From the NCBI RefSeq assembly GCF_020194955.2, contig NZ_JAFCIY020000055.1, forward strand, positions 1 through 57,535: a stretch of 57,535 nucleotides of DNA. Reading direction: 5' to 3'. Below the pieces are notes generated by a model. That model was given only the letters and a program-made list of their open reading frames with translations. It searched no databases and had not been told where the DNA came from. This stretch comes from Desulfuromonas sp. CSMB_57. Its GTDB lineage: Bacteria > Desulfobacterota > Desulfuromonadia > Desulfuromonadales > Syntrophotaleaceae. The translations under genes were made by a program, and so were the position numbers. The first letter of the stretch is position 1. Every line of letters starts with the position of its first letter. Of the stretch, positions 9,078 through 34,648 are shown piece by piece.

Positions 9078-9587
9078 ATGTCCGATGTACGCGGTACCAA
9101 AACCGAGGCCGATCTGCAGGAATCTTTTGCCGGGGAATCCCAGGCCAATCGCAAATATCTCGCCTTTGCCGAAGCCGCCGACTGTGAAGGCTTCGCCCAG
9201 GTGGCCAAGCTGTTCCGCGCCGCGGCGGCAGCGGAAACCATTCATGCCCATGCCCATCTGCGCGCCATGGGCGGCATTGGCAGCACCCTGGAGAACCTCA
9301 AGGAGGCGGTCAGCGGCGAAACCCATGAGTTCAAGGAAATGTATCCGCCCATGATCGAGGAAGCCAAGGCCAAGGGCTTCAAGGCCGCCGAGCGCACCCT
9401 GGCTTATGCCAACGAGGTGGAAAAAGTGCATGCCGGTCTCTATCAGAAGGCCCTGGACAATCAGGGCAAGATCGAAACCGTCGACTACTATGTCTGCAAG
9501 GTCTGTGGCAATACCCTGGAAGGTCCGCCGGAAGGCCCTTGCAGCGTCTGCAAGGCTGCCAAGACGGCCTTTTTCAAAGTGGACTGA
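9078..9587 (+). CDS. Rubrerythrin
   Basis: This 169-residue protein has a ferritin-like four-helix diiron domain. E-x-x-H and E-pair segments are visible at GESQANRKYLAFAEAA, AETIHAHAH, GETHEFKEMYPPMIEEA and ANEVEKVHAGLY. A C-terminal rubredoxin-like Fe(Cys)4 site follows (YVCKVCGNTLEG...CSVCKAAK). Rubrerythrins reduce hydrogen peroxide in anaerobes using electrons from rubredoxin or NAD(P)H. AAGGAG lies upstream of the ATG. A second, separate rubrerythrin is encoded at 51273 in the oxygen-defence cluster. This one has its own strong promoter and terminator-like hairpin, so it is probably monocistronic. Confidence 0.93.
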   Translation: MSDVRGTKTEADLQESFAGESQANRKYLAFAEAADCEGFAQVAKLFRAAAAAETIHAHAHLRAMGGIGSTLENLKEAVSGETHEFKEMYPPMIEEAKAKGFKAAERTLAYANEVEKVHAGLYQKALDNQGKIETVDYYVCKVCGNTLEGPPEGPCSVCKAAKTAFFKVD

Positions 9588-10830: not shown

Positions 10831-11810
10831 CGGTCCTGATGGAAACCCTGCAAAACGCCGCGGCGGCCCTGGGGTCCGGCTCCTGGCAACCGGAGCTGGC
10901 GGCCCGCCTCGAACAACGGGGCGCGCAACTGCGGCACCGGGACGGCAACGTGCGGCGGCTGCTGGGGCGCCTGGCCGAGGCGCCGAGGTTGCAACCCAGC
11001 CGTCTGGATCTGGCTGCAGGGCGGGTGGTCATCGGGGCGCCGGAGGATCTCGGCGCATGGCCGCAAGCGGCCCTGCATGATCTGCTGATGGCCTTCCGCC
11101 CCTGGCGCAAGGGCCCGCTGCGACTGTTCGGCATCGACGTGGACAGCGAATGGCGTTCCGACCTGAAATGGAACCGTTTCAAGGATCATATCGCCCCCCT
11201 GGCCGGCCGGCGGATTCTGGACATCGGCAGCAGTTGCGGCTACTATCTGTTTCGGATGGCGGCGCACCAGCCGGACCTGGCTCTGGGCCTGGAACCCTAC
11301 CCGCCCTTTTTCTGCCAGTACCTGCTGCTGCAGGGCTGGTTGCGGCAGCCTCGGGTCCACTGCCTGCCCCTGAAGCTGGAGGAGCTGCCGGCCATGGACG
11401 GCCGTTTCGATACGGTCTTTCACATGGGGGTGCTCTATCATCAACGCTCGCCCCACGATGCCCTGAATCGCTTGGCATCCCTGCTACGTCCCGGTGGCGA
11501 GTTGGTGCTGGAAACCCTGGTGCTGGACGGTGAGGACGATTTGGCCCTCTGCCCCCGCAACCGTTACGCCAAGATGGGCAACGTGTTTTTCCTGCCGACG
11601 GTGCCCCTGCTCATGACCTGGCTGCAGCGAGCCGGATTTCAGCGGGTGCGCTGTCTCGACAAGAGTTGGACGACGGCCGAAGAGCAGCGTCGCACTCCCT
11701 GGATCAACACCGAGTCCCTGGCCGACTTTCTCCATCCGGCCGATGCGCGGCGCACCGTGGAGGGCTACCAAGCCCCCCTGCGGGCGGTGCTGCTGGCCGA
11801 GCGGCGCTGA
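10827..11810 (+). CDS. cmoB: tRNA U34 carboxymethyltransferase
   Basis: CmoB transfers the carboxymethyl group from carboxy-SAM to 5-hydroxyuridine-34 of tRNA, giving cmo5U. The 327-residue protein has the CmoB core: [16 protein letters not shown], the SAM-pocket [54 protein letters not shown] and [12 protein letters not shown]. It is slightly variable at the N terminus. ATG 10827 overlaps the cmoA stop. The 5-hydroxyuridine precursor can be made by a U32-type enzyme, and a U32-family gene lies at 18835 in the same window, so a complete cmo5U route is plausible. Confidence 0.95.
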
Positions 11811-11857
11811 CCCGTTTTTCCGGTAATCCCATTGCAACCCGAACCAAGGAGCCCATC

Positions 11858-12046
11858 ATGCCCATCATCACCCTCGGTATTTCCCCCCAGTCGACGGAAG
11901 TCAAAGAGCAGCTCATGGCCCGGCTGACCGCCGCCGCCGCCGAGGTCACCGGCATCCCGGCCGAGAAGTTCATCGTCATCATCGATGAAAATTCCAAGGA
12001 AAACATCGGTGTCGGCGGGGTGCCCCTGTCGAAGCTGCAGCCCTGA
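11858..12046 (+). CDS. 4-oxalocrotonate tautomerase-family protein (DmpI-like)
   Basis: This 62-residue protein has the tautomerase layout: MPIITLGIS puts the catalytic proline at position 1 after Met removal, followed by an amphipathic helix (EQLMARLTAAAAEVTGI) and the strand KFIVIIDENSKENIGVGG. Length is typical for hexameric 4-OT subunits. AAGGAG lies 7 bases before ATG. It is a lone gene, so the physiological keto-enol substrate is unknown. A dispersed repeat follows it immediately. Confidence 0.8.
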   Translation: MPIITLGISPQSTEVKEQLMARLTAAAAEVTGIPAEKFIVIIDENSKENIGVGGVPLSKLQP

Positions 12047-12087
12047 GGACCGTTTTCGCCCTGTTACCGTTCAGCAAACCTGGACAA

Positions 12088-12190
12088 GGGTCTCGGGGCG
12101 TTCAGGCAAAGGGCCGCATGAACCCATCCCTGGGGCTTGGCCGGCGCCATCCGGGCACCAGACACCCTCTGCCTGAACGCCCCGAGACCC
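12088..12190 (-). repeat. Dispersed hairpin repeat, copy B (inverted orientation)
   Basis: The element runs opposite to copies A, C and D. Its ends form the longest perfect stem of the family: 21 bp starting GGGTCTCGGGGCGTTCAGG, then one mismatch and AGGG. The arms carry GTTCAGGC, which no other copy has, whereas the core (CGCATGAACCCATCCC...GCGCCATCCGGGC on this strand) matches the others. It separates the tautomerase and flavin reductase-like genes. Confidence 0.85.
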
Positions 12191-12238
12191 ATTAGCGCCC
12201 CAGTTACTTCACCGAAGTTTTTGCTCAAGGAGGAACCC

Positions 12239-12805
12239 GTGAAACAGTCCCTGGGAGCCAACACCCTGGCCCAGCCCGCCCCCGTTTGGCTCATCGGCAG
12301 TTACGATGCCGCCGGCCGCCCGAACCTGGCGACCATCGCCTGGGGCGGCATCTGCTGCTCCAAGCCGCCCTGCGCCGCCATTGCCCTGCGGCCGGCCACC
12401 TACACCCACGGCAACATCCTGCAGCGCAAGGCCTTCACCATCAACATCGCCACCGAGGCTTTCGGCCGCCAGGCCGATTACTGCGGCATCGCCTCGGGTC
12501 GGGATACGGACAAGTTCGCCGCCACCGGCTTCACGGCAGTAAAAAGCGAACTGGTAAACGCGCCCTATGTCGAAGAGCTGCCCCTGATCGTCGAATGCCG
12601 CCTGGTGCAGACCGTCGAAGTCGGCGGCCACACCCAATTCATCGGTGAAATCGTCGACGTCAAGGCCGACAGCGCCATCCTTTCCGACCAGGGTATTCCC
12701 GACATTGAAAAGGTCCGGCCCATGATCTTCACCCCCGTGATCCGCACCTATCACGGCGTCGGCCCCTACCTGGGCCAGGCCTTCCAGATCGGCAAGGAGC
12801 TCTGA
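12239..12805 (+). CDS. Flavin reductase-like FMN-binding split-barrel protein
   Basis: The 188-residue protein matches the DIM6/NTAB-type flavin reductase-like domain. PAPVWLIGSYDAAGRPNLAT starts the barrel, then WGGICCSKPPC, ALRPATYTHGNI, FTINIATE and ECRLVQTVEVGGHTQFIGEIVDV. Such proteins bind FMN and reduce small substrates, or partner with oxygenases and flavoproteins. GTG 12239 is selected because AAGGAGG lies 5 bases upstream. The open frame further upstream runs into the dispersed repeat and is spurious. A strong intrinsic terminator follows. Confidence 0.85.
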   Translation: MKQSLGANTLAQPAPVWLIGSYDAAGRPNLATIAWGGICCSKPPCAAIALRPATYTHGNILQRKAFTINIATEAFGRQADYCGIASGRDTDKFAATGFTAVKSELVNAPYVEELPLIVECRLVQTVEVGGHTQFIGEIVDVKADSAILSDQGIPDIEKVRPMIFTPVIRTYHGVGPYLGQAFQIGKEL

Positions 12806-21758: not shown

Positions 21759-21787
21759 AAAAAAGGGGTCGCCACCCCGGCAACCCC
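21759..21787 (-). terminator. Terminator of the RiPP-like operon
   Basis: On the minus strand GGGGTTGCC pairs with GGCGACCCC (one mismatch) and is followed by TTTTTTGTG. It lies about 35 bp after the radical SAM gene stop codon and closes the minus-strand operon that starts near 26900. Confidence 0.75.
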
Positions 21788-21822
21788 GCACAATTTGGCC
21801 CCTTCCGACCGGCGCCCCATCT

Positions 21823-23286
21823 CTAAAACCGCAGGCGCCAGGCCCGGAGGGGATGCCGGAGACAAAACCGCCGCCATTCCTTCCGCCAGTGGCTTACCAG
21901 AGCGGTATCTTCGTTCCCGGCATCGCGCAGCAATTGGCGCAGCACTAACGGCCGGACGAAATATTTCCGGATTCGCCGATAGTTCTCCAGAAACTGCTCC
22001 TCCTCCACGGCTGTGGGGTTGAACCCCGGCCGTGGCTGGTCGAGGTAGGCAAAATCCCCCCATTTTAAATTTTTTCGTTGGCCTTCAGTCAGCCCCTCGA
22101 ACAGAGGCGTACCCGGCAACGGCGCCATGATGGCCGCCGACAAGACCTCAGGGCGAATGGCACGAATGAAGCGCAGATTGTCGGCCATGTCGCGGGCCGT
22201 TTCTCCCGGCAGACCAAACATCATGTTGGCATACACCCGCAGCCCGGCGGCGCGGGTCCGGCGGGCCGCAGCCAGGTTCTGGGCCACACTGGTATTCTTG
22301 CCAATGGCCTGCAACAACCGGTCGCTAGCCGTTTCAAAGCCGTATTCCACCTGGATGCAGCCGGCTGCCCGCATCTCCCGCAACAGTTCCGGTTGCGCCT
22401 GGTCCGCCCGCAGGCAACAGGCCCATTGCAGACGTCGATGCCAGCCGCGTTGTCGAATGGCAAGGCATAAGCGCTGCAGTCGATCCTCGTCGGCGGCAAA
22501 GGTCTCGTCCTCGAACAACAGGCCGTCGATGGCATATTCCCCCAGGGCCTGCTCCATCATGGCCAGGATATAGTCCACCGAATGGAACCTCACCCCCGCT
22601 CCGGCGGTCAGCGGAGCGGCACAGAAACGGCAGGCATTGGGACAGCCGCGCGAAGTGCGCAGGTTGAGCACCCGCAAGGGCAGCCAGCGAATCAGCCAGC
22701 GGCTGCGAGCGGTGTAGTAATCCATGGTACACAGATCCCAAGCCGGCGGCGGCAGCCGATCCAGATCGGCGCAGGCCGGCCTTGGCAGCAGCTTGGCGGG
22801 ACCAGCCGTGGGCCGCAGCAGCAGACCGGCAATGGACGCAGCGGAGCCCTCTTGGGCCACCTCCAACAGGGTCCATTCCAATTCGCCGACCACCGCCCCG
22901 TTCAAATCCGGGCAGGCCGCCAGGGATTCTTCCGGCAGGGCGGTGGCATGGGGCCCGGCCAAAAGCAGCGATGGGCCGGAACCGAGGACCGAACGAACCA
23001 GACCGGCCAAACGAAAGGTTTCTGCCGCCGCCGCCGAGGGGGAGAAAAAGACCACCTGCTCCGGAGCGAAGTCCCGCAGTGTGCCACACAGCCGGGCATC
23101 GGCCGCGGGCCAATCAAAACCGGTTGCCGCCAGCTCCGCCTGCCGGTCCAGCAGCCCCACCGGGTGCCCATGCCGGCGCAGCAGGGCGGACGCCTGGGCC
23201 GCTTCCGTAGGGACGATGGAATACAGAAAAACGCCGCGCGGCCAGGAATCGGCCGGCGGCGTCGGACAAATCAGCAGCACCCTCAT
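21823..23286 (-). CDS. B12-binding-type radical SAM enzyme in RiPP-like operon
   Basis: The 487-residue enzyme has an N-terminal Rossmann-like region of the cobalamin-binding type (GPHATALPEES, but no clear D-x-H-x-x-G). A radical SAM core follows with C-P-N-A-C-R-F-C at about residues 215-222, then the YGFETASDRLL and MMFGLPGET segments common to BchE/HpnJ-like enzymes. Such enzymes catalyse methylations or C-C rearrangements via a 5'-deoxyadenosyl radical. ATG 23286 overlaps the stop of the nucleotidyltransferase (ATGA). As the last gene of the peptide operon it is a candidate tailoring enzyme. A role unrelated to the peptides cannot be excluded. Confidence 0.8.
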   Translation of the reverse strand: MRVLLICPTPPADSWPRGVFLYSIVPTEAAQASALLRRHGHPVGLLDRQAELAATGFDWPAADARLCGTLRDFAPEQVVFFSPSAAAAETFRLAGLVRSVLGSGPSLLLAGPHATALPEESLAACPDLNGAVVGELEWTLLEVAQEGSAASIAGLLLRPTAGPAKLLPRPACADLDRLPPPAWDLCTMDYYTARSRWLIRWLPLRVLNLRTSRGCPNACRFCAAPLTAGAGVRFHSVDYILAMMEQALGEYAIDGLLFEDETFAADEDRLQRLCLAIRQRGWHRRLQWACCLRADQAQPELLREMRAAGCIQVEYGFETASDRLLQAIGKNTSVAQNLAAARRTRAAGLRVYANMMFGLPGETARDMADNLRFIRAIRPEVLSAAIMAPLPGTPLFEGLTEGQRKNLKWGDFAYLDQPRPGFNPTAVEEEQFLENYRRIRKYFVRPLVLRQLLRDAGNEDTALVSHWRKEWRRFCLRHPLRAWRLRF

Positions 23287-24341
23287 GGCGCATCCTCGCC
23301 GGGGCTGGAGAGAATCGCCCCCTGATCGTTGGCCGGAAGCCGGACGGGACCACCCCCTTTTAGGTATTGCCGAAAGAGATTTTTGCGCAAACCGTCGCCG
23401 CCGCGCGGCGACAATCCCCGCATCACCAAGGGCGGCGACAACAGCCACCGACACCAGAAGGGGGGCGGGGTCAGCCCCAGGCGTCGGCCCACAATAGGCG
23501 CTTCCGGGCCCTCGAACAGGGTTGCCACCAGCCAGCAGGCCGTAGCCAGCACCCGGTTGCTGCCGGTGCGTCCGGCCCGCTCGGCCAGCCAGAGAAGGTT
23601 CATGGCTTCACCCCGACGCAGCAGTTGCAACAGGTCCACCAGAAATTTGAGGCGATCGAACTGGTGCCCGCTGCCGGCATGCACCGCTGCCAGCAGCAGG
23701 CGGCCTTCATGACCAAAGCCCCCGGCATCATCCAGCAAATCGTCCAGAACGACATGAACGCCTCGATGCAGGCTGGGCGAATTGACCAGGTTCCAATGCA
23801 GTTCGACGCGCAGGCTGACCCCGGCCACGGCCAATTGATAGACCTCTTCGCCGTAAGCGGCGGCATGCTTGAGGGGGCCGTCGCTGTGCCGGGCGCAACC
23901 TTCCTCAAGCAGCACCCGGCCGGCGCGGGCGAAATCCTCCGGCCGCACCAGCAGATCGATATCGGTAAAACTGCGCAGGGCAGGGCGGGGATAGAGCTGG
24001 TCCGCGAAATCCGCGCCCTTGAGCAGCAAGGCCGGCAAACCGGCGGCTTCAAGGGCCCGGCACATCCGCAGACCGTAAGCGCGCAGCAACATGCCGCGGG
24101 CGGCATCAATGCGCACAACTGGGGCCAAGGCCCGGATTGCCGCATCGCGCCAGCAGACCGGCCAAACCTCTGCGGATGCGCCTTGCAGGTTGGCCAGCAC
24201 CGTGCCGTGCACCCCATGAAAAAGGGCCCGCCGGCACAGTTCTTCCGCCGACAACCGCGGCACCCAGCCGCTGCCGGCAGGGGGTCTGACCCGCCCCTCG
24301 GGATCGCTGAGCGCCAGCAGGACCCGATCGGGGGCGTTCAT
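23283..24341 (-). CDS. Uncharacterised nucleotidyltransferase (NTP_transf_5-like) in RiPP-like operon
   Basis: The 352-residue protein carries LLLKGADFADQLYPRP and SFTDIDLLVRPEDF near residues 106-136, the G-x-D...D-x-D metal-binding pattern of the nucleotidyltransferase family typical of lasso-peptide and other RiPP loci. In paeninodin-like lasso clusters a similar protein accompanies a serine kinase; its reaction is unknown. Start and stop both overlap neighbours by ATGA (kinase upstream, radical SAM downstream), so the three proteins are translationally coupled. C-terminal residues after about 300 are poorly structured and basic. Confidence 0.8.
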   Translation of the reverse strand: MNAPDRVLLALSDPEGRVRPPAGSGWVPRLSAEELCRRALFHGVHGTVLANLQGASAEVWPVCWRDAAIRALAPVVRIDAARGMLLRAYGLRMCRALEAAGLPALLLKGADFADQLYPRPALRSFTDIDLLVRPEDFARAGRVLLEEGCARHSDGPLKHAAAYGEEVYQLAVAGVSLRVELHWNLVNSPSLHRGVHVVLDDLLDDAGGFGHEGRLLLAAVHAGSGHQFDRLKFLVDLLQLLRRGEAMNLLWLAERAGRTGSNRVLATACWLVATLFEGPEAPIVGRRLGLTPPPFWCRWLLSPPLVMRGLSPRGGDGLRKNLFRQYLKGGGPVRLPANDQGAILSSPGEDAP

Positions 24342-25360
24342 ACCAGGACCTCACCCTCCAACACCGACTGGATCACTTCCGGCAAATCGGCCAGATCCGG
24401 CCCCACGGACAGGCCAAAGCAGGGCGTACTTTTGCAGAGTTCGGCCAGGGTTTGAAACATGGCGCCGCCGGGACCCTCTGCCAGGGGTTCGATGACCCGC
24501 AGGTTGCCCTGCAGCAGGCGCGGCAGGACGGCAAGGCCCGACAACGGTTGGAGGCGATGCTCTCCCGCGCTGCGGGGTTGCAGCAGAAACAGGGCACGAA
24601 TCGGATATCGCACCCGCGGATCGGCGCCGGGCAGATCGCGGAACCGCACCCGCCATTCATCGCTGTTCGGCAGCTTGCGGCTGGGCAGGTGACGCAGCTC
24701 CGGCAGGAGTTCGAAGGTCTTTTCATGCACCTTGCTGGCGCGCGGCAACCCCCAAAGCTGAAAACAACCGTCCGTTTTGGACAAAAAACCGGCATCGTCG
24801 CAGATCAGGGGCCAGCCCTGACGGGCCAGGGCCAGGACCGAAGTGGTCTTGCCGGCGCCGCTGGCGCCAAAGAACATGACGCCATGGCGGCCTCCGGGCA
24901 GCACATTGGCCCCCGTATGCAGCAGGTACATGCCGCTGCCAGCCAATAGCTCGGATAACAGGGGGATCAGGGACTGAAAACCCCATATTCCCCACTTGCC
25001 CCGCACCACCACGGCCTCCGCGGTCTGTTGCCGCAGGTCATAGCGGGTGACCGCCACATCCTCCAGCAGGTTGACCCGCTGCCCCGTGGGCCGCACCAAC
25101 AGCCGCATGGGCACCCCGCCTTCCGGGGTCGCGGAGAAGGTCTTCGGATAAGACTGTTCTTCGATATCCGGCAACTGCCCGGCGTACTCCACGGTGCGAC
25201 CGCGCAACACAAAAGCCCCTTCATCAGCGTTGAGGGAAGGATGATGCGCAACACGAAAAAATCCATCCAACAGCGTTTCCACGGCCTGAAGCAGGCCCTG
25301 GTCCTCACTTTCGACCCGGAGCGACTGAGAATGAAGCGAAAAATATCGGGTTTCGAGCAT
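24338..25360 (-). CDS. HPr-kinase-like serine kinase of lasso/HprK-related type
   Basis: The 340-residue protein has an HprK-type C-terminal kinase fold with P-loop GASGAGKTTS (about residues 165-174) and an ICDDAGFL acidic strand 15 residues later. A 150-residue N-terminal domain precedes it. Homologues in lasso clusters (the PadeK/ThcoK type) phosphorylate a serine of the precursor. HprK-related kinases with PqqD partners are also known from other systems. ATG 25360 is taken instead of TTG 25375; neither has a clear ribosome site. An intrinsic hairpin separates it from the precursor genes. The precursors contain an invariant Ser-Gly, a possible target. Confidence 0.8.
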   Translation of the reverse strand: MLETRYFSLHSQSLRVESEDQGLLQAVETLLDGFFRVAHHPSLNADEGAFVLRGRTVEYAGQLPDIEEQSYPKTFSATPEGGVPMRLLVRPTGQRVNLLEDVAVTRYDLRQQTAEAVVVRGKWGIWGFQSLIPLLSELLAGSGMYLLHTGANVLPGGRHGVMFFGASGAGKTTSVLALARQGWPLICDDAGFLSKTDGCFQLWGLPRASKVHEKTFELLPELRHLPSRKLPNSDEWRVRFRDLPGADPRVRYPIRALFLLQPRSAGEHRLQPLSGLAVLPRLLQGNLRVIEPLAEGPGGAMFQTLAELCKSTPCFGLSVGPDLADLPEVIQSVLEGEVLV

Positions 25361-25387
25361 GACAACACACGGCAAGAGAAGAGCGGT

Positions 25388-25432
25388 AATTGAAACAAAG
25401 CCGGTCCGTGCCCAGCTACGGCACGGACCGGC
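25388..25432 (-). terminator. Hairpin attenuator between precursor genes and modification genes
   Basis: GCCGGTCCGTGCC (25400-25412) pairs perfectly with GGCACGGACCGGC (25420-25432): 13 bp, 7-base loop. On the minus strand it is followed by TTTGTTTC. It lies after the last precursor and before the kinase gene, so partial termination would give more precursor than enzyme mRNA. Confidence 0.7.
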
Positions 25433-25468
25433 CTTGGATCAACGAAAAGTATTCGTCCTCGATAAGTG

Positions 25469-25585
25469 CTATCGATCGTCGCCGGAAACAATCATGCTGC
25501 CCCCGGCAGTGACTTCCTGCAGAGTTTCACCCGGATGGAGCAGGGGCGGTTGATAACTCTGTTTTTGCGACGCTTGCTTTTCCAT
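25469..25585 (-). CDS. RiPP-like precursor peptide A4 (38 residues)
   Basis: The start is MEKQASQKQS and the leader motif Y-Q-P-P-L-L covers residues 11-16, with a Gly at 19 and L-x-E-V-T at 22-26. The deduced core after T26-A27 is GGSMIVSGDDR (11 residues). AAAGGAGCTGCCC precedes ATG. This peptide best fits a lasso leader (Y-x-x-P-x-L, Gly, penultimate Thr). A Gly1 and Asp9 in the core could in principle close a ring, but only two residues would remain as a tail. Confidence 0.75.
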   Translation of the reverse strand: MEKQASQKQSYQPPLLHPGETLQEVTAGGSMIVSGDDR

Positions 25586-25616
25586 GGGCAGCTCCTTTTA
25601 AAAGATGTCGACAAAG

Positions 25617-25733
25617 TCAGCTGGGCAGCGGCTCGCCCGAGGTAATCATTGCCATTTCGGTGATGGCCTCCAGCAATTCCTGCCTTTCCAGACAGGGCGC
25701 CTGGTAGGCTTGTTTCTTGGTTTGGTTTTCCAT
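25617..25733 (-). CDS. RiPP-like precursor peptide A3 (38 residues)
   Basis: The frame begins MENQTKKQA, with Y10-Q-A-P-C-L15 as leader motif and L-E-A-I-T at 21-25. The deduced core after T25-E26 is MAMITSGEPLPS, which keeps the Ser-Gly pair and has no N-terminal Gly. GGGAGG precedes the ATG and lies partly within the end of the preceding peptide region. Base composition and spacing resemble the sister genes, consistent with duplication. Confidence 0.75.
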   Translation of the reverse strand: MENQTKKQAYQAPCLERQELLEAITEMAMITSGEPLPS

Positions 25734-25750
25734 GCTAACCCTCCCATTAA

Positions 25751-25867
25751 TTATTTCGACATTTCTCCGGACACAATGGGTTGAGTACCCTCCACCACCT
25801 CCGCCAGGAGGTCCAGAGTCGTCAACGCCGGCGTCTGATAATCCCGTTTGGTCTGCTGCGCACTCAT
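25751..25867 (-). CDS. RiPP-like precursor peptide A2 (38 residues)
   Basis: The frame begins MSAQQTKRD, with Y10-Q-T-P-A-L15 and L-A-E-V-V at 21-25. The deduced core after V25-E26 is GTQPIVSGEMSK: Gly at 1, Glu at 9, Ser-Gly at 7-8. GGAGGG lies 6 bases before ATG. A potential Gly1-Glu9 macrolactam can be drawn, but with a three-residue tail a threaded lasso is unlikely. Confidence 0.75.
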   Translation of the reverse strand: MSAQQTKRDYQTPALTTLDLLAEVVEGTQPIVSGEMSK

Positions 25868-25888
25868 TTTTTCCCTCCTTGCTTATGC

Positions 25889-25996
25889 TTATTCGATTAT
25901 CACACCGGAGACACTCTCGGAAATTTCCGTTATTTCGGCGAGAGTTTCCTGCTTTTCCAGTTCCGGCGCCTGATAATCCTGTTTGCTTTCCTGCAT
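25889..25996 (-). CDS. RiPP-like precursor peptide A1 (35 residues)
   Basis: The first and shortest precursor starts MQESKQD, with Y8-Q-A-P-E-L13 and L-A-E-I-T at 19-23. The deduced core after T23-E24 is ISESVSGVIIE, again with Ser-Gly. GGGAGGGAG precedes ATG. It lies 105 bp after the B2-type peptidase stop, without an obvious promoter of its own, so it is probably co-transcribed from upstream. Confidence 0.75.
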   Translation of the reverse strand: MQESKQDYQAPELEKQETLAEITEISESVSGVIIE

Positions 25997-26100
25997 AATC
26001 TCCCTCCCTGAAAAAGAACTTGAATTTTCCACTCCCAGCTCAAAACTACCTGCTTTCAATCCGCAAGATCCGATGGAACAACGCTGAAATGACCGATTGT

Positions 26101-26541
26101 TCAGCCCCGCACAAACATTGTTCTGAATTCCGTCTCATTGTCAACACTAAATTGCACAAAAGTCCGCATGCGCGTACCGGGCAGGGACGGCGCCGTGATG
26201 TTTTCACCGTTCACCGTGACCCAGCAGTGGGCGTGGAGACGTCGGGGATCCATGCTGGGCGGCGCGATGGCAAAATGCATCAGTACCGGCCGGCCGGCCA
26301 AGCGCAGAAAGTGACCCATGGTCAGTCCCAGACGATAGCAGGCTCGGCGCTTCATCCAGCGCGGGCGGCGCAGGGCGGCATGTACCAGTACCGAGAGGGT
26401 TGCAACCGGCACACGCCGGTAGGGTTGCCATTTGGGACCGGCAATCAGCAATCGCACCAACCGCGGAAGAGACAACCAACGATCCAGCAAAGGTATGGCG
26501 AGGGTCACCAGGCGGATATGGAGGCGCAGCAACAAATGCAT
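26101..26541 (-). CDS. Lasso-B2-type leader peptidase (transglutaminase-like)
   Basis: The 146-residue protein (149 if GTG 26550 is used) fits the stand-alone B2 cysteine peptidase of lasso clusters. It has a hydrophobic N-terminal stretch, catalytic-type RACYRLGL (Cys near 68-71), then about 35 residues to RLHAHCWVTVNGENI with the catalytic His. B2 enzymes remove the leader from the precursor after the PqqD-like protein delivers it. ATG 26541 overlaps the PqqD stop (TGATG), so the two are coupled. Canonical HAW is HCW here, a mild deviation. A third catalytic residue is not identifiable by eye. Confidence 0.78.
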   Translation of the reverse strand: MHLLLRLHIRLVTLAIPLLDRWLSLPRLVRLLIAGPKWQPYRRVPVATLSVLVHAALRRPRWMKRRACYRLGLTMGHFLRLAGRPVLMHFAIAPPSMDPRRLHAHCWVTVNGENITAPSLPGTRMRTFVQFSVDNETEFRTMFVRG

Positions 26542-26822
26542 CAGCCACACCGGATCAGAGCAGCTTCCACCAGCCTGGAAGACAAGTGCCGCAAATCCTG
26601 CTCGAGTCGGTCCCGTTCCACCTCGAACTCGGCATGCACGGCATCCACCAGTTCGGAAAATGAACGCCGGCCATCCATCAGCTCCAGAAATCGCCGGGTG
26701 GTAAGATTACAGGTAAACAATTGGCCGGTGGTCAGCTGCAGGATGACGGCCGGCTCATTTTCGCCCATGTCCTGCCAGGTCACATCCGGTTGCAGCTGCA
26801 GAATCGCTGTGTTGGAAATCAT
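26541..26822 (-). CDS. PqqD-like RiPP recognition element protein
   Basis: The 93-residue protein has a typical PqqD winged-helix: a strand region (VILQLTTGQLFTCNLTTRRFLELMDG) and helices with FSELVDAVHAEFEV and LEQDLRHLSSRLVEAALI. Such proteins (lasso B1, PqqD) bind the leader peptide and present it to the processing enzymes. In lasso systems the contact is the Y-x-x-P-x-L motif, which all four precursors downstream have. GAGGTAAACC precedes ATG. It is the first gene of the operon. Cysteine pairs are absent. Confidence 0.85.
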   Translation of the reverse strand: MISNTAILQLQPDVTWQDMGENEPAVILQLTTGQLFTCNLTTRRFLELMDGRRSFSELVDAVHAEFEVERDRLEQDLRHLSSRLVEAALIRCG

Positions 26823-26907
26823 GGTTTACCTCATAAAAGATGCGTTTGCCTGGCATGGACATGCAGCAATCCAGGCCAAGCCAGGCTTGAGAACCTTGGA
26901 TTGGGCC

Positions 26908-26936
26908 AGCATAATGTATCGACCGGCCAATGGCAA
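26908..26936 (-). promoter_or_regulatory. Candidate promoter of the RiPP-like operon
   Basis: On the minus strand TTGCCA (26936-26931) and TATGCT (26913-26908) are 17 bp apart, about 85 bp ahead of the PqqD-like gene. A weaker plus-strand TTGACA/TACGCA pair at 26968-26996 may serve hemL. Nothing else is recognised between the divergent genes. Confidence 0.4.
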
Positions 26937-27046
26937 CCGAAACAGTGTTATGGGTGGCGGGTCCTGCTTGACAGTCCAAGGCAGCTGTGTTACGCAGAAA
27001 CAAGGATTTTCCGCAGGTTGGCTGCGCTACCGGACAGGGGGTGATC

Positions 27047-28357
27047 ATGATCCAGCAACAATCGGCCAAGCTTTTCGCCAAAGCCCAACAGGTCATTCCC
27101 GGCGGGGTCAACAGCCCGGTCCGCGCCTTCAAGGCCGTCGGCCGCCAGCCGATCTTCATCGAACGGGCGGAAGGCTGCCGGTTGTACGATGCCGACGGCA
27201 ATGCCTATATCGATTATGTCGGCTCCTGGGGGCCGATGATACTCGGGCACGGCCATCCCCAAGTGGTGGCGGCTCTGCGGGCCGCCGTCGGCCGCGGCAC
27301 CTCCTTCGGTGCCCCGACGGCCCTGGAAACGGAATTGGCCGAACTGGTCTGCGCCGCCTATCCCAACATCGAACGGATCCGCATGGTATCGTCCGGCACC
27401 GAGGCGACCATGAGCGCCATCCGCCTGGCCCGCGGTTACACCGGCCGGGACAAGATCCTCAAATTCGAGGGCTGTTATCACGGCCATGCCGACAGCCTGC
27501 TGGTGAAAGCCGGCAGCGGCGCCGCAACCTTCGGCGTACCAAGTTCTCCGGGAGTACCGGCGGACTGCGCCCGCCATACTTTGACGGCGCCCTTTAACGA
27601 TCTGGAGCTGGTCCGGGAACTGGTCGCCGCCGAGAGCCGCGCCATCGCCGCCATCATCGTCGAGCCGGTGGCCGGCAACATGGGCTGCGTGCCGCCCGAG
27701 CCGGGTTTCCTCGAGGGCCTGCGGCAGCTCTGCGACGAGCAGGGCATGGTGCTGATCATGGATGAAGTCATGACCGGATTCCGCCTCGGCTTGGGCGGCG
27801 CCCAGCAACGCTATGGGGTGCAGGGCGACCTGGTCTGCCTGGGCAAGATCCTGGGAGGCGGGCTGCCCGTCGGCGCCTTCGGCGGCCGCCGGGAGATCAT
27901 GAGCCTGTTGGCCCCGGAAGGACCGGTCTATCAGGCTGGAACCCTGTCCGGGAATCCCCTGGCCATGAGCGCCGGACTGGCGACACTGCAGTTGCTGCAG
28001 GAGGAGGGCGTCTACCGGCAACTTGAGGAAAGCAGTGCCTATCTGGCCGAAGGCCTGCGGCAGGCCGCTGCCGGCACCCCCCACGCAACCTGTCTGCAGC
28101 GCGTCGGCAGCATGTTCTGTTGCTATTTCCAGCCCGGGCCGGTAGCCAACTTCGCCGAGGCCTGCGCCAGCGACACTCCGGCTTTCGCTGCCTTTTTCCG
28201 GCTCATGCTGGCGCAGGGCATCTACCTCGCGCCGTCCCAGTTCGAAGCCGGCTTCGTCGGTCTGGCCCATGACCGCGAAGCCCTGGATCGGACCATCGAA
28301 GCTGCCGCCAAGGCCTTCGCATGCATTGAAAGCCAGACCGCCGAAACCACCGGCTGA
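27047..28357 (+). CDS. hemL: Glutamate-1-semialdehyde 2,1-aminomutase
   Basis: HemL converts glutamate-1-semialdehyde to 5-aminolevulinate in the C5 heme/tetrapyrrole pathway using PLP. The 436-residue protein shows [11 protein letters not shown], the PLP-phosphate region [35 protein letters not shown] and the Schiff-base lysine in [17 protein letters not shown]. The frame is open 20 codons upstream, but GGGGGTGAT and the conserved [10 protein letters not shown] start support ATG 27047. It is divergent from the RiPP-like operon, with no apparent functional connection. Confidence 0.96.
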
Positions 28358-32851: not shown

Positions 32852-33001
32852 GACCCCCCCTGACCCGCAACCAAGTTTCAATCCTCCCTCAACGGCTTCA
32901 GCATAGCCTCATGCAGGAATTTCGGCAAGCCGTCACCACCTAGTCAACGGCCGCCGCAACCGGCCGCCAATCATAACCAAGAAACATTGACCGCATTCCA
33001 T

Positions 33002-33030
33002 TTGCAATTCATCATCATTTGTGCTAGACA
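33002..33030 (+). promoter_or_regulatory. Candidate promoter for Wzi-like gene
   Basis: TTGCAA (33002-33007) and an extended -10, TGC-TAGACA (33025-33030), are 17 bp apart, leaving an 80-base leader before ATG 33113. It lies in the gap between divergent transcripts. Confidence 0.45.
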
Positions 33031-33112
33031 GGCGCCATATCTTGTCCTATTCCATTCCATGACTCATCCTGGCTTGCCGGGATACCCTGCCAAACAATGG
33101 AGGATTGTGGCC

Positions 33113-34648
33113 ATGTTCCGTCCATGGGCCCTCGTGCTGTTGGTGCCGATTTTGCTGTTATCCTTCACCCCGGTCCTGGCCGCGCCAAGTCCGGCCATTC
33201 CCCTCTCCAGTTGGGTTTATCCGGCCCTCGACAAACTGACCGGCCTGGGGCTCATCGAATCCTCCCTGCAAGGCAACCGACCTTTTTCCCGCGCGGAAGC
33301 AGCGCGTCAAACCGACGAAGCGACGCAACGCAGTCGCGACGCGCAAGTTGCCCCCGTTGCTAGGGAACTGTTAGCCCGACTCCAACAGGAATTCCACCAT
33401 GAATTAGGGGAGTTGCAGAACCCCGAGACACCCGCGGCAAGTTATTTCAAGCCGATTCGGGAGATGCGTCTGGACTACCTGTATCGGGAGGGCGCCGATT
33501 CACCCTATCCTCAAACCAATGCTTCACAATTTGCCCTGCTCACCAATCGCGACGGTCTCGACTACCGTACCGGACACAACAGCGAACTGACCCTGGTCGG
33601 CGATGCCCGCTGGGGCCGCTGGTTGTCGGTCGACTGGCGCCCCCTGGTACGCCTTCAGGAAGGTGATGGTGCCAGTCTGCGATTTCGGCAGGGAGTCGTC
33701 GCACTGGGACTAGGCCCGGTACAGCTGAGCGCCGGCCGACAGCCGCTCTGGTGGGGCCAGGGACGGCACGGCAGCCTGGTCCTCAGCAACAACGCCGACC
33801 CGCTGGACCTGGTCCGGCTGCACAACCCGTCACCGGTGGAACTGCCCTGGATTCTCAAGTATCTGGGACCTTTCCAGTTCGATATGTTCGCCGCCCGCCT
33901 GGATAATGATCGGGAGGTGCCGCGACCCTGGTTCGGTGGCTTGCGCATCGGCTTCAAGCCCTGGCACTGGCTGGAATTGGGCATGCATCGCACGGTCATG
34001 TTCGGCGGCAAAGGCCGACCGGATATCGGTTTCGACGACTTTTTGACCATCATCGGCGGCCAGAACCTCAGCGGCGACGACGATACCAGCAATTCCCTGG
34101 CCGCCTTGGATTTTCGGCTGAAGCTGCCCTTTTTGTGGAACGCCGAGCTGTATGGAGAATATGGCGGCGAGGACGAAGCCAAAGCACTGGGCATCCTCCC
34201 CTTTGTGAGCAAAACCGCTTACCTGGCCGGGATTTATCTGCCGCAAATCGAGCCGAGCGGCCGGTTGGGGCTGCGCCTCGAATACACGGACACCAACCGC
34301 AACAACGCCTGGTACCGGCACGGCATCTATAGGTCCGGATATACCTACGAGAAGAAAATCCTGGGACACCATCTCGGGGGTACGGGCCGCGGCTATTTTG
34401 CCGAATTGAGCGCCTACCTCAATGAAGGGCTCAGCCTGAGCCTGTCCTTCCATCACGCCGACCGCACCCCGCCGGGCCTGCCGTCGGAAAGGCATTACCA
34501 ACCCGCCCTGGAACTGTCCTGGCAATATGCGCCGGAAATGCTTTTACGACTGCGGTACGCCTGCGACCGGGTGCACAATTTCGCTTTCCAGGACAACGAC
34601 TCCCGCACCCTGCACCTGGCCGAAGCAGGCCTGGCCTGGAGTTGGTGA
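33113..34648 (+). CDS. Capsule assembly Wzi family outer-membrane protein
   Basis: The 511-residue protein starts with a Sec signal peptide (RPWALVLLVPILLLSFTPVLA, cleavage after LAA-like). The mature part is predicted to be beta-barrel-like, with alternating aromatic strands and the Wzi-type segments VVALGLGPVQLSAGRQPLWWG, LDLVRLHNP and LGMHRTVMFGG (one of these is quoted only in part). Wzi binds or organises capsular polysaccharide at the outer membrane. No capsule genes are adjacent except a sugar nucleotidyltransferase 5 kb downstream. GGAGG lies 9 bases before ATG. Function as capsule anchoring is inferred from family. Confidence 0.82.
   Translation: MFRPWALVLLVPILLLSFTPVLAAPSPAIPLSSWVYPALDKLTGLGLIESSLQGNRPFSRAEAARQTDEATQRSRDAQVAPVARELLARLQQEFHHELGELQNPETPAASYFKPIREMRLDYLYREGADSPYPQTNASQFALLTNRDGLDYRTGHNSELTLVGDARWGRWLSVDWRPLVRLQEGDGASLRFRQGVVALGLGPVQLSAGRQPLWWGQGRHGSLVLSNNADPLDLVRLHNPSPVELPWILKYLGPFQFDMFAARLDNDREVPRPWFGGLRIGFKPWHWLELGMHRTVMFGGKGRPDIGFDDFLTIIGGQNLSGDDDTSNSLAALDFRLKLPFLWNAELYGEYGGEDEAKALGILPFVSKTAYLAGIYLPQIEPSGRLGLRLEYTDTNRNNAWYRHGIYRSGYTYEKKILGHHLGGTGRGYFAELSAYLNEGLSLSLSFHHADRTPPGLPSERHYQPALELSWQYAPEMLLRLRYACDRVHNFAFQDNDSRTLHLAEAGLAWSW

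Follow-up and report, generated by a model that had tools for sequence, protein, structure and literature searches.

Can an operon that carries the leader-binding and leader-cutting proteins of lasso peptide clusters, and no lasso cyclase, be the source of another kind of modified peptide? The question is raised by a minus-strand operon in contig NZ_JAFCIY020000055.1 of Desulfuromonas sp. CSMB_57 (NCBI RefSeq assembly GCF_020194955.2; the window below is this whole stretch of 57,535 nucleotides), which encodes, in this order, a PqqD-type protein, a B2-type peptidase, four precursor peptides, an HprK-like kinase, an NTP_transf_5 protein and a radical S-adenosylmethionine (SAM) enzyme. We conclude that it is probably an operon for a ribosomally synthesised and post-translationally modified peptide (RiPP) of a lasso-like, cyclase-free lineage, with a linear product that would be phosphorylated on Ser and tailored by the radical SAM enzyme. 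The strand, gene identities and gene order given in the original prediction for this DNA were borne out by the reading frames and by Pfam, with the kinase as the weak match among them:

26541–26822, minus strand: PqqD-type discrete RiPP recognition element (RRE), lasso B1-like, 93 amino acids (aa); PF05402 44.4 bits (cut-off 23.4)
26101–26541, minus strand: B2-type cysteine leader peptidase, 146 aa; PF13471 30.4 bits (cut-off 26)
25889–25996, minus strand: precursor A1, 35 aa, predicted core ISESVSGVIIE; leader motif and core rule
25751–25867, minus strand: precursor A2, 38 aa, predicted core GTQPIVSGEMSK; leader motif and core rule
25617–25733, minus strand: precursor A3, 38 aa, predicted core MAMITSGEPLPS; leader motif and core rule
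25469–25585, minus strand: precursor A4, 38 aa, predicted core GGSMIVSGDDR; leader motif and core rule
24338–25375, minus strand: HprK-like peptide kinase, 345 aa, start codon uncertain; TIGR04352 28.2 bits and PF07475 18.8 bits, both under cut-off
23283–24341, minus strand: NTP_transf_5 nucleotidyltransferase-like protein, 352 aa; PF14907 120 bits, FTDIDLL motif
21823–23286, minus strand: radical SAM enzyme, 487 aa, CPNACRFC at 215; PF04055 74 bits

Lasso-type proteins in an operon without a cyclase

The nine operon proteins were searched against Pfam and NCBIfam profiles, and the scores were read against the curated cut-offs. PqqD, Transglut_core3, NTP_transf_5 and Radical_SAM scored over their Pfam cut-offs. 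The kinase did not, and neither did the B12-binding region of the radical SAM enzyme. Among the matches listed, none of the nine proteins reached an NCBIfam cut-off, the closest approach being that of B2 to lasso_biosyn_B2 (NF033537, lasso_B2; 30.7 bits, 2.3 bits short of the cut-off of 33). The predicted gene overlaps were also seen, as TGATG between PqqD and B2, and as ATGA between the kinase and NTP_transf_5 genes and again between the NTP_transf_5 and radical SAM genes.

The B1 (RRE) and B2 (leader peptidase) pair of a lasso cluster is thus present, recognised through PF05402 and PF13471. The PqqD protein has lasso_PqqD_Strm as its best NCBIfam match (28.1 bits, below the cut-off of 70) and TbiB1 (5v1u), which we take to be a lasso B1 protein, as its top PDB sequence match, and it was the sole PF05402 match found in the genome. 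In B2, Cys68 and the His beside CW in HAHCWV (105) align with Cys and His in 15 of 15 B2 proteins. The asparagine-synthetase-like cyclase of lasso clusters is absent from among the operon proteins, and a PF00733 search of the 94-contig draft genome gave no candidate for one, as it matched at two places, both on contigs other than that of the window, where by eye one protein is AsnB-like (class II, with MCGIVG once its frame is extended upstream) and the other MnmA-like. The predicted lack of a cyclase was therefore upheld. Nor did the profile searches of the operon proteins find an exporter within the operon.

The best curated match of the kinase is HprK-related kinase A (TIGR04352), and yet at 28.2 bits against a cut-off of 200 we reject membership of that family. 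Its His153, Lys176, Asp193 and Asp194 are invariant in the three orthologues, and these residues form the motif of proven lasso-precursor kinases (PMC9266682; here and below, statements on published systems refer to the parts of the cited papers that we drew on). The N-terminal region of the radical SAM enzyme weakly resembles B12-binding domains (PF02310 19.5 bits, under cut-off), and the best NCBIfam matches of this enzyme are HpnJ (122.8 bits) and ApyD (110.2 bits), both also under cut-off. Its top PDB sequence match is 6fd2, ‘apramycin biosynthetic oxidoreductase 4’ (74.6 bits), presumably AprD4. These matches to HpnJ, ApyD and an apramycin-pathway enzyme do not fix the chemistry of the radical SAM enzyme.

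The cassette in related genomes

Searching 136 genomes of the order for the kinase gave three strong matches (>350 bits, the source genome included) and eleven weak ones (≤37 bits). A profile of eight precursors matched at 10 places in the same three of the 136 genomes, and a B2 profile run over 277 genomes of the class (E 0.001) again found these three, which we refer to as the strict group and which make up 3 of the 14 genomes of the family. A single-protein kinase scan of genome contigs found no relative, and a scan with a radical SAM alignment and narrow patterns found the two known relatives plus one distant match. A partial and weak precursor-profile match in a further genome (G024, E 0.006) was regarded as chance.

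In one relative (G114, locus L019), a single contig carries all cassette genes in unchanged order, and two precursors lie in the gap from B2 to the kinase. In the other (G111) the cassette is divided by contig ends, with the kinase, NTP_transf_5 and radical SAM genes and one precursor on C59 (L020), and PqqD, B2 and three precursors on C5 (L073), and we infer that the two pieces adjoin. The original prediction would have lost ground had homologous loci never been linked to precursor-like peptides; precursors are linked at all three strict loci. The flanks of the cassette are an Aminotran_3 (hemL-like) gene and a U32 peptidase gene in the window, an RND-pump-like (resistance–nodulation–division) gene and, after the cassette, a glycosyltransferase-like gene at L019 (by eye), and rplS/rnhB-like and rsmI-like housekeeping genes beside the G111 half-cassettes (by eye). 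As the flanks are unlike at the three loci and few genomes of the family are carriers, these arrangements suggest that the cassette may have moved between loci or genomes.

B2 loci with and without a cyclase in the phylum

A survey of Transglut_core3 (PF13471) matched 136 of 395 genomes of the phylum, 105 of them above the cut-off. We examined the loci at the best 25 PF13471 places of the phylum, most places beyond these being in open frames of about 500 residues, plus the places from the order sample, where 12 of 136 genomes matched. Five weak PF13471 places (L075 and L132–L135) were dropped because none of the searched proteins was present, as was L074, where by eye nothing was related. A profile begun from the L023 protein (Asn_synthase plus GATase in Pfam) found a lasso-cyclase-like protein at 14 loci (L023, L106–L108, L111, L112, L114, L116–L121 and L123; a fragment in L106). 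Cyclase-free loci with both a kinase and a radical SAM gene comprise the window, L019, L020/L073, L124, L125, L129 and L131/L128, with a B2 and a radical SAM gene and no kinase found in the examined stretch at L126, L127 and L130. A further five (L109, L110, L113, L115 and L122) have B2 with neither cyclase nor radical SAM gene in the examined stretch; they group with the lasso B2s and were kept unclassified.

In the kinase tree, 14 kinases from 12 cyclase-bearing loci lie on one side of a branch with support of 100/99, and on the opposite side are seven kinases from cyclase-free loci plus three HprK-like kinases from loci where no B2 was found. The seven cyclase-free kinases fail to form a single clade in the best tree, although such a clade was not rejected (approximately unbiased test, p-AU 0.287). 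The B2 tree has a 96/98 split between the proteins of the 14 cyclase-bearing and five unclassified loci and those of the seven cyclase-free and three radical-SAM-only loci, and the PqqD tree a similar and weaker one (83/81), with L136 as a long outlier. The labels were given to the loci ahead of tree building, and the trees cover one phylum, with published lasso proteins and those of the linear polyphosphorylated peptides (LPPs) of Bacillota (Popov et al., Nat Commun 2026; PMC13381572) outside them; the tree tool warned of long branches meeting in the kinase, B2 and PqqD trees.

Radical SAM genes accompany all ten B2s of the second clade, eight in the same stretch and two via sister contigs (L073 and L128 are cut by contig ends, and the radical SAM and other cassette genes are on L020 and L131, respectively). 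With seeds taken from the cyclase-free loci, a search for radical SAM genes turned up none at the cyclase-bearing loci. In a less biased check, using the CxnCxxC motif followed by Pfam for genes of 230 to <900 residues within 8 kb of B2, radical SAM genes were found at 1 of the 14 cyclase-bearing and none of the five unclassified loci, some of which are short stretches. The exception is L108 (13864–15889, plus strand), where two Radical_SAM genes separate the cyclase gene from those for PqqD and the precursor.

One of the cyclase-bearing loci, L023, lies in a genome of the same order as the window (G126); this lasso-type cluster also encodes an ABC transporter, two HprK-like kinases and, by eye, a sulfotransferase-like protein.

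Precursors with short predicted Ser-Gly cores

The prediction of four precursor-like peptides held, since the leader motif with a ribosome-binding site matched four times in the window, always in the gap between B2 and kinase, versus twice in 300 simulated windows of equal length and base-step make-up scored with the same pattern. We chose this pattern already knowing the window peptides, a narrower first pattern having caught two of the four. We predict the core to start 17 residues after the leader Tyr, so that Tyr(-17) is the anchor of the count.

For comparison we had 23 cyclase-free precursors (10 from the three strict genomes, five from L124, six from L125 and one each from L129 and L131) and, as controls, nine precursors of cyclase-bearing loci, where 8 of the 14 loci contributed and none was chosen at the remaining six. 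Both sets were chosen by eye from motif matches, discarding those that were not precursor-like. Apart from the anchor Tyr(-17) (23/23), the cyclase-free precursors share Leu, Val or Phe at -12 (23/23), Pro at -14 (22/23) and usually Thr at -2 (19/23, with Ser in two, Val in one and Ala in one). The ten strict-group precursors have Tyr(-17) and a hydrophobic residue at -12 in every case and Thr(-2) in eight, and all ten predicted cores, of 11–16 residues, contain Ser-Gly. In the window peptides the Ser of this pair is at core position 6 or 7, and the cores have no Tyr.

Lasso peptides need an Asp or Glu at core position 7–9 followed by a threading tail, which we did not find in the cyclase-free cores. 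These are 8–16 residues long (n=23), versus 13–30 in the controls (n=9), and in a rule-based count an acid at 7–9 plus a tail of at least five residues occurs in 0/23 cyclase-free and 8/9 control cores; this count supersedes an earlier cutting of the cores by eye (0/21 and 9/9). An acid at 7–9 with a shorter tail is found in 10/23 cyclase-free cores, including three of the four in the window, which makes the acid by itself a poor discriminator between the groups (8/9 vs 10/23, p 0.04).

Two genomes of one genus group encode precursor-like peptides with a run of seven tyrosines at the C-terminus (MKKSYVAPQFFKHNPLESVS[S/A]TYYYYYYY; L129, 2191–2280, and L131, 9047–9136). These adjoin PqqD, HprK-like kinase, NTP_transf_5 and several radical SAM genes, with B2 in L129 itself and, for the second genome, in L128, and no cyclase was found in the examined stretches. 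L125 has six near-alike tandem precursor genes (11021–12360, plus strand), which run against the direction of its kinase, B2 and radical SAM genes; three of the six terminate in VSG plus three residues, resembling the Ser-Gly cores of the window. At L126, L127 and L130 the leader motif detected no precursor.

Proposed pathway and alternative explanations

The gene content, leader motif, conserved core and relatives are read directly from sequence, and from these we propose a pathway of which all the chemical steps are predictions. The PqqD protein would bind the Y..P.L part of each leader and present the C-terminal core. The kinase would phosphorylate a residue with a hydroxyl group, for which the invariant Ser of Ser-Gly is the likeliest candidate, and the NTP_transf_5 protein may attach a nucleotidyl or sugar group to the phosphate so placed. 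The radical SAM enzyme may add a further change such as a methylation, a cross-link or an alteration of the added group. B2 would cleave before the residue 17 positions past the leader Tyr, which leaves one residue between the usual Thr and the cut, and would release a linear peptide of about 11–16 residues with no macrolactam. RRE binding, B2 cleavage and kinase action are proposed by analogy with tested relatives (the Bsf system of Bradymonas, LPPs, paeninodin and pseudomycoidin). BsfK phosphorylates core Ser3 with the aid of BsfB1, which also aids leader removal by BsfB2 (PMC10368454), in a linear peptide core Ser3 receives several phosphates from LppK (PMC13381572), and the target of PadeK is the C-terminal Ser, with PsmN required for a hexose on the phosphorylated Ser (PMC9266682).

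Were this a lasso cluster that has lost its cyclase, or has it encoded elsewhere, the presence of B1/B2, kinase and NTP transferase would be expected, as all are known from lasso clusters in the papers cited; the leaders do match the lasso motif, and an acid is found at position 8 or 9 in three of the four window cores. The draft genome nevertheless holds no lasso-cyclase candidate and no cyclase-free core has the acid with a tail of five. Nor would the loss be a fresh one, because three genomes share the cyclase-free cassette and the kinase and B2 are placed apart from those of cyclase-bearing loci, and on account of these trees we rate this whole reading very unlikely. Relatives, trees and precursor anatomy thus favour the original view that lasso-like machinery may here serve to make something other than lassos. 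Short cores with a single invariant Ser-Gly, a PqqD-type RRE, a radical SAM enzyme and an operon without an exporter would also suit a cofactor or small-molecule pathway like those of pyrroloquinoline quinone (PQQ) or mycofactocin, with the core as a scaffold trimmed to a small molecule and the variable C-terminal tail discarded. We consider this unlikely, as four precursors with differing tails suggest several products and not one cofactor, and the operon has no PqqE-like SPASM enzyme, further protease or dehydrogenase.

It is also conceivable, and in our view distinctly unlikely, that a polysaccharide or lipid is the substrate of the kinase, the NTP transferase and the radical SAM enzyme, with the peptides as carriers, primers or regulators. 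The top radical SAM matches include the hopanoid-associated HpnJ and the apramycin-pathway enzyme, and HprK-like kinases with distant NTP_transf_5 relatives are found amid glycosyltransferase-like genes at L021 and L022 (by eye), the latter including a PqqD protein (9095–9562). Likewise, PqqD, nucleotidyltransferase, HPr kinase and glycosyltransferases occur together on a Crinalium plasmid (L142), and a glycosyltransferase-like gene is the one noted by eye after the L019 cassette. Such a gene was not seen at all three strict loci, however, and B2 with leader-type precursors of near-fixed lasso spacing is present in all three strict genomes.

Beside the PqqD, kinase and nucleotidyltransferase-like genes of L022 and L142, no B2 or cyclase was seen. 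The L022 PqqD protein (PF05402 42.4 bits, residues 24–90) has a C-terminal tail resembling a fused precursor.

Several points weigh against the linear, Ser-phosphorylated and radical-SAM-tailored product that we prefer. No curated kinase model matches the window kinase more than weakly, and as this kinase groups with the HprK-like kinases of loci without B2, its substrate may differ. AlphaFold models were unusably poor (mean pLDDT, the predicted local distance difference test score, of 48 for the radical SAM enzyme and 42 for the kinase, with three sequences each). In McjB the third catalytic residue of a B2 peptidase is Asp, and that of the window B2 is not obvious in the alignment. The known kinases cited above act on core Ser3 or the C-terminal Ser, and here Ser6 or Ser7 is predicted. 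Tyr is not accepted by LppK or BsfK (PMC13381572, PMC10368454), and the looser relatives L129 and L131 have poly-Tyr cores without Ser. LppN, furthermore, was inactive in the published host (PMC13381572), and the association with radical SAM genes is not exclusive, given that L108 has a cyclase and two such genes.

A wider reading is that B2 peptidases are not specific to lasso peptides and form two old groups, one paired with cyclases and the other with radical SAM enzymes, mostly alongside a separate HprK-like kinase lineage. The second group, including the window, would then be a RiPP class of its own, making very short, phosphate-bearing, radical-modified linear peptides with cores from Ser-Gly to poly-tyrosine (L129/L131). 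We put this forward tentatively, having first thought it evenly balanced and then marked it down slightly because the less biased check found the L108 radical SAM genes. If true, mining rules that equate B1 plus B2 with a lasso peptide would fail for a whole lineage, and a cyclase-free phosphopeptide lineage outside Bacillota would mean that linear phosphorylated RiPPs are older or have arisen repeatedly.

Transcription signals and neighbouring genes

Three putative signals accompany the operon:

26908–26936, minus strand: promoter-like pair TTGCCA-17-TATGCT upstream of the operon; consensus scan, 9/12 positions
25396–25436, minus strand: 17-bp hairpin between the precursor array and the kinase; fold z -6.2 for 25376–25468
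21765–21787, minus strand: terminator-like stem and T run 3' of the radical SAM gene; consensus scan

Promoter-like sites number four in the region against a shuffle mean of 1.0. A terminator had been predicted at the end of the operon, and the stem and T run are indeed there, but such sites are no commoner than in shuffled sequence (six against a mean of 6.4). The hairpin, of which the original prediction makes no mention, is a possible attenuator or 3' end stabiliser. At the equivalent place L020 has another strong and different hairpin (z -5.1), and the L019 gap has no clear one in the first 125 of its 270 bases (z -1.15), with a weak result for a scan of the whole gap.

The claim that the 57 kb hold no exporter has to be corrected, as MacAB-type genes for an HlyD-type adaptor, an ABC ATPase and two MacB permeases lie upstream of the operon and outside it at 32881–28415 on the minus strand, parted from it by the divergent Aminotran_3 (hemL-like) gene (26987–28357). 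These genes could serve the operon, though we found nothing that ties them to it. A Wzi capsule-assembly gene (32987–34648, plus strand) adjoins the MacAB-type genes.

Comparison with described systems

The LPPs are the closest described relative of the window operon. The two share a discrete RRE, an HprK-like kinase, an NTP transferase, a YxxPx[hydrophobic] leader and the lack of a cyclase, because of which the LPP product is linear (PMC13381572), and this combination of RRE, kinase and NTP transferase without cyclase is found complete in the window. What LPPs have of their own are an archaeal-type (SpI-like) signal peptidase, an MsbA-like exporter, a tested core of 45 residues and a reported restriction to Bacillota (PMC13381572). 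The window operon, in contrast, has B2 in place of the signal peptidase, a radical SAM enzyme, no exporter within the operon, cores of 11–16 residues and a host among Desulfuromonadales-type bacteria. A term search of the main text of the LPP paper returned no occurrence of ‘radical SAM’ or ‘Desulfo’ (PMC13381572). The authors of the LPP paper suppose that their NTP transferase needs a partner (PMC13381572), and the radical SAM enzyme may be a candidate for one of this type.

With the phosphorylated lasso peptides paeninodin and pseudomycoidin (PMC9266682) and Bsf (PMC10368454) the operon shares B1, B2 and an HprK-like kinase, and with the latter two a nucleotidyltransferase as well. The Bsf leader, with Tyr(-17), Pro(-14) and Leu(-12), has the spacing of the cyclase-free leaders, and position -2 is Ile or Val in Bsf-type leaders (PMC10368454) and Val in precursor A2. 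The window differs from these clusters, as far as the cited papers describe them, in having no cyclase, no ABC exporter in the operon, an additional radical SAM enzyme and short cores without an acid at 7–9 plus tail. Its kinase and B2 also lie apart from those of the cyclase-bearing loci of the phylum sample, with the published lasso proteins outside these trees.

PQQ biosynthesis involves PqqE, a radical SAM/SPASM enzyme, and the precursor PqqA with Glu...Tyr. This pathway (PqqA/D/E) and the operon have in common a PqqD-type RRE, a radical SAM enzyme and a related leader motif (PMC13381572). The window adds B2, a kinase and an NTP transferase, and its PqqD reaches 22.3 of 46 bits on the TIGR03859 profile; the radical SAM enzyme matches B12-type families, with PqqE not in the best 25 of 42 matches, and the cores lack Tyr, and we reject membership on these scores. 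SynChlorMet (ScmC/ScmD/ScmE/ScmF in NCBIfam) is similar in having the PqqD-like ScmD and radical SAM enzymes, and ScmC weakly matches the L124 kinase. The window PqqD differs in scoring 15 of 100 bits on ScmD, and ScmC is not among the 12 families matching the window kinase up to E 1; membership here is also rejected on scores. The matches listed in a literature search included no paper on this cassette.

The operon would function much as an LPP pathway does, or a phosphorylated lasso pathway that ties no knot. Lacking the cyclase of the one and the signal peptidase and in-cluster exporter of the other, it falls in neither the lasso nor the LPP class as these are defined. The original prediction of a distinct and possibly undescribed class is weakened, because LPPs with RRE, kinase and NTP transferase and without a cyclase were described in 2026 (PMC13381572). 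No description of the B2, kinase and radical SAM combination was found among the matches listed in the open-licence literature, searched by titles and the starts of abstracts. The operon is therefore probably a little-described branch of known peptide-modification systems.

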